From Actinomycetota bacterium (GTDB taxonomy: Bacteria; Actinomycetota; Actinomycetes; Streptosporangiales; Streptosporangiaceae), in assembly GCA_003140115.1 (NCBI GenBank), contig PLIQ01000393.1, positions 1 to 7,921 on the forward strand: DNA of 7,921 bases, in the 5' to 3' direction. How positions within the stretch are numbered: the first letter of the stretch is position 1; each line of letters starts with the position of its first letter. Both the position numbers and the translations under genes were made by a program. Below the pieces are notes generated by a model that saw nothing but the letters and a program-made list of their open reading frames with translations, was not told where the DNA came from and searched no databases. Of the stretch, positions 4,588 through 7,921 are shown one piece after another.

Positions 4588-4736
4588 GGTGCTGTCTCCT
4601 GTCTCAACGCGATGCGGGTACGAAGTGTAGCCGACGAACCCGGGGGCCTGGACCGGCAACGATTCCGCGGCCTCGGCAACCCGTCCCGCGCCCGGTCTGG
4701 GCGGCCCGTCACCGGCGACCAAAGATCTGACCGTAA
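4588..4736 (-). promoter_or_regulatory. Intergenic region with possible rplY promoter
   Basis: This 149-bp gap between the transporter and rplY is the longest in the left half and the natural place for the promoter of the rplY-cysN block. The minus strand has a TACACT hexamer at 4629-4624, fitting the actinobacterial -10 pattern TANNNT, and it would give a leader of about 30 nt. No good -35 sits 16-19 nt upstream. A weak 5-bp hairpin (4689-4703) has no T-run, so transcription termination of the transporter is not shown. Confidence 0.3.
4596..4600 (-). promoter_or_regulatory. Ribosome binding site for rplY
   Basis: AGGAG on the minus strand lies 8 nt upstream of GTG 4587. It decides the rplY start against the longer reading frame that begins at TTG 4740. 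Confidence 0.75.
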
Positions 4737-6068
4737 TCAAGCTGTCGCTATCTTATCGGCCTTATCGGCGCCCGCCGCCACCGTTCCTTCCGGAGCCAGA
4801 TCAGAAACGTCCCGGACCCGCCGAAGCGGCGAGAAGACGACCAGCAAGTCGGTGGCCCACAACCCGCCGTACGCGATCCATATCGCCGGGCGAAGGCCAA
4901 CGGCCGAACCGATGATCCCGCCCAGCAACCCGCCCACCGGCAAGGTTCCCCAGATAATCCAGCGACTTGCCGCGTTCATCCGGCCGCGCAGCTCCGGCGG
5001 GCAGATCGACTGCCGATAGGCAACCTGCGAAGCGCCGAAGATGGCACAGGCGAAGGCGGACGCACCATAACCGACCACGAACAGCGCTATCCGCCACCCG
5101 GGTTCGGCGAACGGCAGCAGGATCGCCGGAGCACCGAAAGTCAGGTGCGAGAAACACAAGACCCGCGCCGTTCCGATACGACGTCCGATGGACGCGGCCA
5201 GCATGCCGCCCATGATCCCGCCCAGCGCGCCCAGAGCGGTGACCAGGCCGGCCAGGGCAGGGCGCACCTGGAGCACCCGGACGAGGAACAGCAGGTTCAG
5301 GGAAATCTGCATGGCAATGAACAGGTTCCCGGCGGCGGAAGACTCGGTGGTCTTACGGAGAATCGGGCGGCGGGTAATGAACTGCAGGCCTTCGGCCACT
5401 TCGCGGCGTAGCTGCCTGATGCCCGCGGACTTACGTTCCGGCCGAGGTTCAACGACCTTGAGCGAGAGCAGGCAAGTGACCGACACCGCGTACGACAGGG
5501 CATCGGCCGTGATGGCCCGGGCCGCTCCGATGACGGCGACCAGCGCGCTCGCCAGCCCTCTTCCCGATACCTGCCCGAACGAAGCCGACGCGCCGAGCTT
5601 GCCGAAGCCCTCGGTGAGATCCTCCGGGGCCAGCAAGGACGACACGAAGCTTTGCTGGGACACATCGAAGAAGACTGCGCACACTCCCGCGGTCAAAGCC
5701 ACCGCGTAGAGCTGTGCCAGGGTCAGCCGGTGAAAAGCCGCCGCCACCGGCACCGACCCGATGATGACCAGGCGCGCGCAATCGCAGCAGATCATGATCG
5801 GCCGCTTCCGGAGCCGGTCCACCACCACCCCCGCGGGCAGGGCCACCAAGGCGAAGGCGGCGTAGGTGGCCGCGGTCAGCAGGCCGACCTGCAACGGGGA
5901 GGCCCTGAGCACGGCGATGGCGGCCAGCGGCAGGGCGATGGTGGTGACCGCCGAACCCACCAGGCTGATCGTCTGCCCGGTCCACAGGACCACGAACGCC
6001 CGCTGCCGCCACAGGGACCGCCGCGGCAACACCGGTGTCTCCGCGTATTGTGCATCCGTCTGGCGCAT
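4737..6068 (-). CDS. MFS transporter, DHA3/MFS_3 type exporter
   Basis: This 443-residue inner-membrane protein has about 12 hydrophobic segments from residue 23 to 413. It belongs to the major facilitator superfamily, drug:H+ antiporter-3 (MFS_3) branch, related to macrolide and siderophore exporters such as MefA and EntS. VVVDRLRKRP at 81-90 is the motif-A loop between helices 2 and 3. Family-typical segments are SQQSFVSSLLAPEDL (137-151), the small-residue stretch at 163-185, and PPELRGRMNAASRWIIWG (357-374). A long central loop around 205-235 joins the two halves. The substrate cannot be read from the sequence. ATG 6068 is chosen because AGGAG lies 5 nt upstream and the N-terminus is normal; the frame is open to 6236 but that extension is not family-like. 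It follows the small ORF at 6191 by 122 bp. Its GC is between that of the cys block and the upstream gene. Confidence 0.9.
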   Translation of the reverse strand: MRQTDAQYAETPVLPRRSLWRQRAFVVLWTGQTISLVGSAVTTIALPLAAIAVLRASPLQVGLLTAATYAAFALVALPAGVVVDRLRKRPIMICCDCARLVIIGSVPVAAAFHRLTLAQLYAVALTAGVCAVFFDVSQQSFVSSLLAPEDLTEGFGKLGASASFGQVSGRGLASALVAVIGAARAITADALSYAVSVTCLLSLKVVEPRPERKSAGIRQLRREVAEGLQFITRRPILRKTTESSAAGNLFIAMQISLNLLFLVRVLQVRPALAGLVTALGALGGIMGGMLAASIGRRIGTARVLCFSHLTFGAPAILLPFAEPGWRIALFVVGYGASAFACAIFGASQVAYRQSICPPELRGRMNAASRWIIWGTLPVGGLLGGIIGSAVGLRPAIWIAYGGLWATDLLVVFSPLRRVRDVSDLAPEGTVAAGADKADKIATA

Positions 6069-6190
6069 CCCTGCTCCTGCTCGACCCGTCTGCTTACCCT
6101 GGGCGCCCCGGGTCCCGCAGCTGGCTGGCCACAGATGACCCCAAAGCACCGCTCGCCCGACAATCAGCTCCGCACCGGAGCCGCCCAACG
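6069..6190. other. Gap between small ORF and transporter gene
   Basis: No gene is seen here apart from the AGGAG (6078-6074) that serves the transporter ATG at 6068. On the minus strand I find no strong hairpin with a T-run and no convincing promoter. The transporter could be transcribed from upstream or from a promoter I cannot recognise. Confidence 0.4.
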
Positions 6191-6385
6191 TCATGGATGC
6201 CGCATCCTGATGGGTCTTCGCACCACGCTGCCGCATTCATGCTGTTCCGCTCGCGACTCGCCGGTCGGATTCGCCGGAAACTCGAGTACATCTTCGGGTT
6301 TCAGGTTAAGCAGGCCTGGTCTGGCCGGGTATAGAATCGAGCGAGCCTCTTCTATTGACTTGTATTTACTTCCTTGCTCGGGCAC
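6191..6385 (-). CDS. Small hypothetical protein overlapping upstream gene
   Basis: I do not recognise this 64-codon ORF. It begins at GTG 6385, and GGAGG (6395-6391) lies 5 nt upstream. Both the ribosome site and the start are inside the final Gly/Ala/Arg codons of the proteasome-like gene, which it overlaps by 20 nt in another frame. The product is hydrophilic with no membrane segment: SKYKSIEEARSILYPARPG, then LLNLKPEDVLEFPANPTGE, then a basic end. By hand count the GC at codon positions 1, 2 and 3 is about 66, 47 and 58 percent, a pattern consistent with coding DNA of moderate GC. The setting suggests translational coupling to the upstream gene, as for a partner or regulator; that is inference. 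It could also be a chance open frame, since it is short and no homologue is known to me. Confidence 0.5.
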   Translation of the reverse strand: MPEQGSKYKSIEEARSILYPARPGLLNLKPEDVLEFPANPTGESRAEQHECGSVVRRPIRMRHP

Positions 6386-7718
6386 CGCCGCCTCCAGAGG
6401 ACCGAGTAGTAGTAGTAGCTTGCGAAGAACCGGCAGGGTAGTAGTTCGCGAAGAACTGATGGTTGAGGGCGGCATCAAAATAGTGTTTTCTGTTGATCCA
6501 GATAAAGCCGTCCCCTTTGGAAATGACTGCGACATCGATTGGGCCGCCTACGGTCTCCGGATCGTGCGTGACACGGCGTTTGAACGAGGTTAGGCTGACC
6601 AGCGATTCTGCCATGCCAGCTAGCTCTTCCTTGGGAAGGTTGGCGACCGCGGAGACGACCGGCCGAACGTGGGACTGGACGCTGTAGGAGTCCAAACGCT
6701 CGAAGAACTGTTTCGCTGGAGTTGCTCTTACCTGATCGAACTGCCTGCGTAGGGTACTTTCGCGGCGCCCGGTTGCACCGGTGCCGATCACCAGGGCGTC
6801 GGCCAGTCCGGCGGCAAAATCTTCCAAAGCGTGCTCGACCTCTTGCCGGAAGGCTGGATCTATCCCCTCCAGAAACAGGCTCACCATATCGCCCTGCGCG
6901 AACGGGATAATCGCCGCCGGGTTACGGGAGCCAATGATGGCGGACTTTTCGGCGTTCTGCCGGACCTTTACAAAGCCCAGGAGAACGCCTTCCATGTCGA
7001 AGCTCACCACGCTGGGGAGGTAATCTTCTTCGCCAAACCCGGCAACGACGACGCCGGATACATTATCTGGGAACAAACTCGCGGTAAATACTAGACTTGC
7101 GATATCGATGAGGCGATTTCTCGGGGTGGGATCGACAGGGAGATTCTGGAAAGTATAATCAATGGCTGTCTCTATGCGGCGCCGCCACTGCTGCCGGATG
7201 CGCCGGGCGTGATTCGCCGGGCTGCCGGGCAGTCGATCGGCGCTGGTCCAAAGTGCGTGCGCCTTCCGGATACTCGCCGCCACGATAGCGCGGACCTGGC
7301 TGTCACCGATGGGGCCTGCCTGTGCGATCTTCTCGCGGATCTTGCCGTCGACATCGTCCAGTATCGGCCGGAATTGCCTGACCACTGACCCGAAAAGCTG
7401 CTGCTCTTGGAGTGCTTCGGTGAACATGAACTTATGTCCGTTGATGTAGGCGATAAGGCTGTCGGCGTAGTCCCGCAGATGGGGTAGCCGCTCCTCGCCT
7501 AGCTCGCCGCGAAAGCATTTAATTATTGTTTCCCAGGGCACCCCGGTAAGATTGCCCACCCCGTAAACCATTATTCCGACGGGTGCATATTTCGAAAGCA
7601 TAAAAAGCTTGTTTACCGAGTTGTAGATCTTCTGGCCGTCCGGATAATTTATGGTCATCGCGCTGTCCGCGGCGAGCGCCACCGCCTGAGAGTTCATGAC
7701 TGCGACCTCTGCGGTCAT
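6366..7718 (-). CDS. Uncharacterised protein, proteasome/HslV-like Ntn fold
   Basis: I do not recognise a named family for this 450-residue protein. Its two ends resemble proteasome-beta/HslV Ntn hydrolases. It starts Met-Thr-Ala-Glu; removal of Met would expose Thr1. Asp then falls at mature position 17 in AVALAADSAMT, as in proteasome subunits, and a Lys follows in NKLFMLSK (Lys37, Met numbering), near the catalytic Lys33 of proteasomes. VGIMVYGVGN (47-56) looks like the next strand. GVVVAGFGEED (222-232) with SFDMEGVLLG (239-248) resembles the AG-D...D-G strands. The helix at 366-382 followed by GGPIDVAVISKGDGF (391-405) resembles the C-terminal helix and strand. Long, mainly helical inserts lie at about 65-210 and 255-360. 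There is no signal peptide or membrane segment; the tail (430-450) is Thr/Gly-rich. AGGAG lies 6 nt before ATG 7718. GC is much lower than in the cys genes. Peptidase activity is a hypothesis only. Confidence 0.85.
   Translation of the reverse strand: MTAEVAVMNSQAVALAADSAMTINYPDGQKIYNSVNKLFMLSKYAPVGIMVYGVGNLTGVPWETIIKCFRGELGEERLPHLRDYADSLIAYINGHKFMFTEALQEQQLFGSVVRQFRPILDDVDGKIREKIAQAGPIGDSQVRAIVAASIRKAHALWTSADRLPGSPANHARRIRQQWRRRIETAIDYTFQNLPVDPTPRNRLIDIASLVFTASLFPDNVSGVVVAGFGEEDYLPSVVSFDMEGVLLGFVKVRQNAEKSAIIGSRNPAAIIPFAQGDMVSLFLEGIDPAFRQEVEHALEDFAAGLADALVIGTGATGRRESTLRRQFDQVRATPAKQFFERLDSYSVQSHVRPVVSAVANLPKEELAGMAESLVSLTSFKRRVTHDPETVGGPIDVAVISKGDGFIWINRKHYFDAALNHQFFANYYPAGSSQATTTTRSSGGGGARARK
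6391..6395 (-). promoter_or_regulatory. Ribosome binding site for the small ORF
   Basis: GGAGG on the minus strand lies 5 nt before GTG 6385. It coincides with Gly codons near the C-terminus of the upstream gene, so it may be a by-product of that Gly run, but its position in front of an open frame favours use. Confidence 0.45.
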
Positions 7719-7742
7719 CGGTGTCTCCTATGAAGGTCGCTT

Positions 7743-7875: not shown

Positions 7876-7921
7876 AAGCGGACGCACAGCAACCAGCGGC
7901 AAAGCGGACGCACGGCAACCA
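7876..7921. repeat. 20-bp direct repeats at 26-bp period, window edge
   Basis: Copies at 7876-7895 and 7902-7921 match at 19 of 20 bases and are separated by 6 nt (GCGGCA). The second copy ends on the last base of the window, so the array may continue. The spacing is far too short for CRISPR. It could be a minisatellite, a set of regulator binding sites, or iteron-like. Confidence 0.8.

Follow-up and report, generated by a model that had tools for sequence, protein, structure and literature searches.

A PMI-4-type proteasome-like threonine hydrolase gene and an overlapping small gene as a candidate two-gene module

Fuchs, Alva and Lupas (2021) described 22 new proteasome-like families, among them PMI-4, a proteasome homolog with multiple insertions (PMC8665760). 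As described there, PMI-4 has a proteasome-like core with Thr1/Asp17/Lys33, no propeptide, a longer insert after H1/H2 and another between H3/H4. It is marked for bacteria, Euryarchaeota and phages and is the most numerous PMI family in Table 1; PMI-3 has both insert sites too, but is rare and lacks the phage mark there. The authors found no genomic context or co-occurrence pointing to a function of PMI-4, and raised the idea that such homologs may act without specialised accessory factors (PMC8665760). Here we analysed a stretch of 7,921 nucleotides of actinobacterial DNA (contig PLIQ01000393.1; "the window") whose minus strand carries a gene of this kind and a small gene overlapping its 3′ end. 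The two probably form a module of a PMI-4-type N-terminal-threonine hydrolase and a dedicated helical partner of about 60 residues. The overlooked second gene, which turns a single enzyme into a two-protein module, is the new part.

The hydrolase gene spans 6366..7718 on the minus strand and has 450 codons, giving a predicted proteasome-like threonine hydrolase of 450 residues. The plus-strand frame across 6366-7718 is interrupted by stops, and the true open reading frame (ORF) runs on the minus strand from 7718 to 6366, as do the features of the two genes given below. A Shine-Dalgarno-like AGGAG (7725..7729) lies 6 bases before the ATG. The Thr2 codon (7713..7715) directly follows this start and would provide the presumed catalytic Thr1 once Met is removed; the Asp18 codon (7665..7667) and the Lys37 codon (7608..7610) correspond to Asp17 and Lys33. 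An earlier note on this DNA had read a diverged N-terminal-nucleophile hydrolase of the proteasome type from Thr after Met, an AADS motif with Asp, a Lys, an AGFGEED/SFDMEG pair and a C-terminal strand, and its fold and catalytic reading was right. All of these elements are present in the window protein (AADS at 16-19, AGFGEED from 226, SFDMEG from 239, GGPIDVAVISKGDGF from 391) and stand above chance in the homologs. The strand pair GGPIDVAVISKGDGF (residues 391-405; 6504..6548) is conserved in the homolog alignment.

The near-invariance that the note expected of Thr2, Asp18 and the Lys was also borne out. In an alignment of 123 rows, whose start sites were trimmed by a pattern demanding Thr or Ser, Thr2 and Asp18 are each kept in 122 rows and Lys37 in all 123. 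When residue 2 was left free in a recount over 150 loci, it was Thr in 149 and Ser in one; five further long hits lack the pattern. Gly222, Gly227, Gly229, Asp395, Gly404 and Trp407 are invariant in 123/123 rows.

The predicted model of the window protein has a beta-subunit fold, which is supported by fold matches. In most rows among those listed, the structure alignment opens by pairing residue 2 of the model with the first residue of the mature beta subunit, and in the profile alignment Lys37 pairs with a lysine of the archaeal beta subunit. The two helical inserts that had been proposed are visible in the secondary structure of the model. Insert 1 (residues 101-209; 7092..7418) comes after helices 62-73 and 81-94 (H1/H2), and insert 2 (residues 317-359; 6642..6770) lies between helices 288-313 and 363-383 (H3 and H4). 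Profile similarity to a proteasome-like family scored 43.1, whereas 25 column shuffles and 5 block shuffles never exceeded 36.0, and the proteasome link becomes strong by way of four insert-less relatives. Such insert-less relatives of PMI-4 (L205-L209; 265-300 residues) have a similar C-terminal GGPI/GGPV motif and, judged by their sequences, appear to bridge PMI-4 and proteasomes. A search of a viral fold library with the model gave no match at E≤0.001. Conservation, model, fold matches and profile test together support a diverged N-terminal-nucleophile hydrolase of the proteasome type, enlarged by the two inserts and lying outside the Prc, HslV and Anbu groups.

The window family matches PMI-4 in both insert sites and in its occurrence in bacteria, Euryarchaeota and phages. 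We assign it to PMI-4 rather than PMI-3 because the latter is rare and not marked for phages; the window protein is very probably PMI-4 (reference sequence HDY66466.1), an assignment made by the published description. Hence the "new class" of the earlier note corresponds to an existing family. Nor is the proposed self-processing supported: no propeptide is present, so Thr1 would be exposed by methionine aminopeptidase. The family is large. At least 7159 database proteins match the PMI-4 query at E≤0.001 (8000 candidates scored), and PMI-4 was confirmed in 301 stretches of species genomes and 86 of viral contigs; the locus work below used 80 of the 301 and 80 of the 86. PMI-4 matches occur in 13 of 50,697 phage records and in 10 of 72,556 plasmid records. 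The PHROG family phrog_5990, an unannotated phage protein family, aligns almost end to end with the window protein (residues 1-426, E 3.2e-114). Among the papers listed by searches of an open-access library (bioRxiv outside the scope), only PMC8665760 contains both "PMI-4" and "proteasome homolog", and by title and abstract start none of them deals with an antiphage role or a small partner of such proteins.

The small partner gene (6191..6385) has a GTG start and encodes 64 residues with the motif YKSIEEARSILYP; it was recognised from its sequence and from family statistics. It overlaps the PMI-4 gene by 20 bases, and its own Shine-Dalgarno-like GGAGG (6391..6395) lies inside the PMI-4 3′ end, 5 bases upstream of the GTG. 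Given the gene overlap, translational coupling is probable. In a first pass downstream of PMI-4, 66 of 374 candidate ORFs fell into a single similarity cluster, and the profile built from these 66 matches candidates at 74 of 160 loci (E<0.01). With start codons chosen by a rule that favours codons close to the PMI-4 stop, 56 of the 74 partners overlap that stop, 70 start within 30 bases of it, and the commonest offset is -14 (18/74). In a profile-free count, an ORF of 40-95 residues starting between -35 and +30 of the stop is found at 75/78 genomic and 70/78 viral loci, versus 63/360 and 58/255 for the neighbouring control genes. Demanding a Shine-Dalgarno-like site as well left 54/78 genomic and 60/78 viral loci, versus 16/360 and 22/255 in the controls.

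We aligned 61 of the 74 partners with the window copy (alignment A3, 62 rows; 13 omitted). Their core motif can be approximated as [YF]-x-S-x-x-E-[FY]-x-K-x-[YF]-F-P; its Pro occurs in 61 of 62 rows. After it comes a C-terminal helix in which Gly, Ala and Leu are conserved. Single-chain structure prediction gave three helices, with a predicted template-modelling score (pTM) of 0.40, a result silent on binding. Outside the overlap, the ratio of nonsynonymous to synonymous substitution rates (dN/dS) is 0.05-0.45 in 18 of 22 listed pairs; four pairs are saturated, several are near saturation and the pairs are not independent. These ratios show that the partner is under purifying selection in the relatives. 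The distance matrices of PMI-4 and partner correlate over 45 loci (r 0.64; the highest value among 1000 permutations was 0.32), as would be expected of genes inherited together. Pfam and NCBIfam gave only scattered hits, no single family occurring in more than 2 of 62 members, and the names of the 49 database proteins that match the partner at E≤0.001, where there are any, are hypothetical or uncharacterised. By these sequence comparisons the small protein seems to be a dedicated partner of the PMI-4 enzyme.

Some unusual forms were also seen. In the database protein P0045 both genes are read as one; we rejected it as a true fusion, for the junction replaces the normal C-terminus and speaks for a frameshift-type joining. 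P0141, a database protein of 119 residues, joins a different N-terminal part to partner sequence of the L022 type and includes an apparent PMI-4 3′ end translated in another frame. Viral contigs (L101-L108, L111-L115, L139-L141) carry at least three further sequence types of small downstream ORF at the partner position.

We also checked how specific the pair is across genomes. Among 294 genomes from the phylum of an ANME-1 archaeon, phrog_5990 matches 11, which we read as four full-length copies, one copy split in two, one that a contig end seems to truncate, and five short relatives. The partner profile has five matches in the same 294 genomes, all directly beside PMI-4, and none elsewhere at E≤0.001; three of these five partners were in the profile, and those of G150 and G272 were not. 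In G150 (L203, L210, L217) the PMI-4 gene lies in two pieces about 1.2 kb apart, and the partner gene is kept. The partner adjoins PMI-4 in 18 of 20 carrier genomes, most of which contributed to the profile, and elsewhere in them nothing scored better than E 0.03. Among 299 Pseudomonadota, phrog_5990 gave six near-full-length hits, plus two genomes with divergent relatives of about 420-430 residues, after which come ORFs of 82-110 residues. By position, then, the partner is nearly always present in the collected loci, but in some lineages it has diverged beyond recognition or is absent.

The pair is scattered among bacteria, archaea and phages, sparse over both domains and mobile elements. phrog_5990 matches 11/294 and 8/299 genomes of the two sampled phyla, of which 5 and 6 are read as (near-)full-length or broken full-length PMI-4, and 0 of 14 control genomes. 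A quick tree of 62 labelled genomic rows requires 8 changes between archaea and bacteria (11.1 when shuffled), and its well-supported branches force two of these. A Planctomycetota record shares 72% with a Methanophagales record in PMI-4 and 67% in the partner, with the usual caution that bins call for. We surveyed the gene places in six of the 13 phage and three of the 10 plasmid records. Among other places, PMI-4 may come late in a satellite phage, stand last behind an endolysin-type gene, precede a holin, lie among head/neck genes or run counter to the direction of its neighbours, placements that are usual for accessory genes. In two Streptococcus satellite phages (L190 6229-6880, L198 8328-8979), two small genes lie directly upstream of PMI-4, for a hypothetical protein and a putative transcription regulator; their order, lengths and spacing are identical in both records. 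In the Mesorhizobium plasmid NZ_AP023255.1 (L196), the surroundings of the PMI-4 gene (8001-9437) include genes for a ThiF-type enzyme and a multiubiquitin-domain protein (4733-6799) as well as an Xre/RES pair.

Performing neighbour clustering, we found no family besides the partner that recurs in more than four locus groups. Two neighbour families reach four groups and were set aside: one is an antisense frame, and the other resembles, in our reading, a phage lysis amidase. We then compared neighbours with controls in PADLOC, scanning 140 of 264 neighbour proteins (120-900 residues, within three genes) and 140 of 151 proteins drawn from 20 control stretches in those genomes. At E≤1e-8, 134 families were matched by the neighbours versus 22 by the controls; families were counted, not proteins, and the difference is overstated because one protein can match many families. 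Taken protein by protein, 9 of 10 motif-picked neighbours match PADLOC at E≤1e-15. They comprise restriction-modification enzymes or methylases and defence-type helicases (BrxHI, HmaA, HKD-Snf2) at 8 of 80 loci, and the control list holds no restriction-modification, BREX, DISARM or Hma family. The defence-gene neighbourhood of PMI-4 is suggestive only.

Several observations weigh against the module or its defensive role. For the enzyme, the window protein has no credible match to a Pfam, NCBIfam or PADLOC family; direct searches reached E 0.018 in Pfam, 0.045 in PADLOC and 0.53 in PDB at best, and NCBIfam gave no hit. The PMI-4 profile alone has a weak link to the proteasome (prob 65). Gly53, the supposed oxyanion position equivalent to Gly47 by a register taken from sequence only, is Gly in 99 and Asn in 13 of 123 rows. 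A homolog in L057 (3784-5091) has Tyr in place of the catalytic Asp18 (AAYS) and is possibly inactive, unless AAYS is a sequencing error. For the partner, the window copy has a clear N-terminal motif YKSIEEARSILYP, but it scores poorly alone against the family model (E 0.15), and by eye its C-terminal helix cannot be made out. Of the six Pseudomonadota copies, the profile finds a partner only in G002, itself a profile contributor; by eye, the other five show one clear small ORF, one doubtful one and, in three cases, none of 35-110 residues. For the role, the window gene is surrounded by ordinary housekeeping genes, the PADLOC control also matches defence-labelled families (mads, DolB, LeoBC, IetA), and a defence gene could not be pinned down at any of the other 72 genomic loci, where no protein-by-protein scan was made.

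There are rival explanations. The pair may resemble a toxin-antitoxin system, in which the free hydrolase is harmful, the small protein inhibits it, and loss of the element or phage attack frees the enzyme. The stop of one gene overlaps the start of the other, the partner evolves faster than the enzyme in most listed pairs, the genes occupy accessory places in phages, satellites and plasmids, and one satellite has a RelBE-annotated pair. The small gene of G150 is kept beside the broken PMI-4, as an antitoxin might be, a single case that shows little. However, the RelBE neighbour is just one case too, and the putative inhibitor is encoded downstream, the less common order in toxin-antitoxin systems. 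We hold this explanation to be unlikely, though by no means far-fetched. Similar doubt attaches to a housekeeping or stress peptidase, whose small protein would be an assembly chaperone or a structural subunit of a cellular protease and whose mobility would be incidental. It fits the housekeeping surroundings of the window copy; moreover, a PF00227 member is encoded as well in 17 of the 20 carrier genomes, so a division of labour is possible. The sparse distribution in the two sampled phyla, the empty set of 14 control genomes and the lack of separation between archaea and bacteria on the quick tree speak against it, although well-supported branches force 2 of the 8 changes.

Tagging in the manner of the Pup-proteasome, with the small protein as a tag on the substrates, is suggested by the gene order: small-protein genes lie next to proteasome subunit genes in the case of Pup and PrcB, as does the gene of about 60 codons here. 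The ThiF and multiubiquitin genes near one plasmid copy point the same way. Yet the Pup C-terminal motif is Gly-Gly-Glu/Gln, and none of the 62 partners ends in GGE, GGQ, GE or GQ or carries GG in its last six residues; neither does any ligase neighbour recur in neighbour clustering. We give tagging very little credence. An activator tail was also considered and rejected, as 0 of 62 partners carry HbYX, the C-terminal activator-tail motif. Finally, the enzyme could be a protein ligase or transferase like connectase, which belongs to the same fold family and is an example of a Thr1 homolog working as a ligase (PMC8665760); the inserts of the window model sit at sites other than the S3/S4 insert of connectase given there, and we consider this improbable.

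We return to the two-gene module. Sequence or model gives its fold, its Thr/Asp/Lys set after Met, its inserts and an overlapping partner with its own ribosome-binding site. Methionine aminopeptidase would remove Met and expose Thr1; together with Asp17 and Lys36 (mature numbering), this residue would cleave peptide or amide bonds. The assembly of the enzyme would differ from that of HslV, since the inserts occupy positions where rings and double rings would pack. The small protein would bind the enzyme and then gate, target or restrain it. As its most likely role we tentatively suppose an accessory or defensive cargo that acts on a phage or host protein when triggered. A possible, still rather doubtful, form of this is a two-component proteasome-like immunity module common to bacteria, archaea, phages and phage satellites, whose threonine hydrolase is checked or aimed by a co-translated sensor of about 60 residues that is released or engaged when a competing phage infects. 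Few unexplained proteasome relatives are as numerous as PMI-4, for which the authors who discovered it had no lead to a function (PMC8665760). The partner gene and the mobile-element distribution make it a testable two-protein system, which may link proteasome-type chemistry with phage-host conflict.

On the same strand of the window lie genes of Pfam families for an MFS transporter, ribosomal protein L25/Ctc, peptidyl-tRNA hydrolase, an inositol-monophosphatase-family protein that we take to be CysQ-like, and CysD-type and CysN-type proteins (the Cys labels are in part our own). The cys part matches 42 plasmid records at the DNA level, and its best matches there come from actinomycetes. At the extreme window edge (7876-7921), a 20-base direct repeat AAGCGGACGCACAGCAACCA occurs in two copies (the second 95%) with 26-base spacing, possibly as the start of a tandem array.

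Compared with known systems, the window protein is about twice the size of a 20S proteasome beta subunit (PF00227), has no propeptide and is missed by the Pfam model. With HslV it shares the Thr1 core fold and bacterial occurrence. HslV is much smaller than 450 residues and operates with HslU (PMC8665760), and neighbour clustering found no recurrent HslU-type ATPase beside PMI-4. Anbu, a proteasome homolog placed near group II in that paper, has no large inserts and forms a split-ring complex (PMC8665760). It aligns with the C-terminal part of PMI-4 and enters the fold list from rank 21, at E 0.0023 and weaker. Nearest of all is PMI-4 as published, for which PMC8665760 reports no accessory factor, whereas here a conserved small partner gene overlaps the gene of the enzyme.
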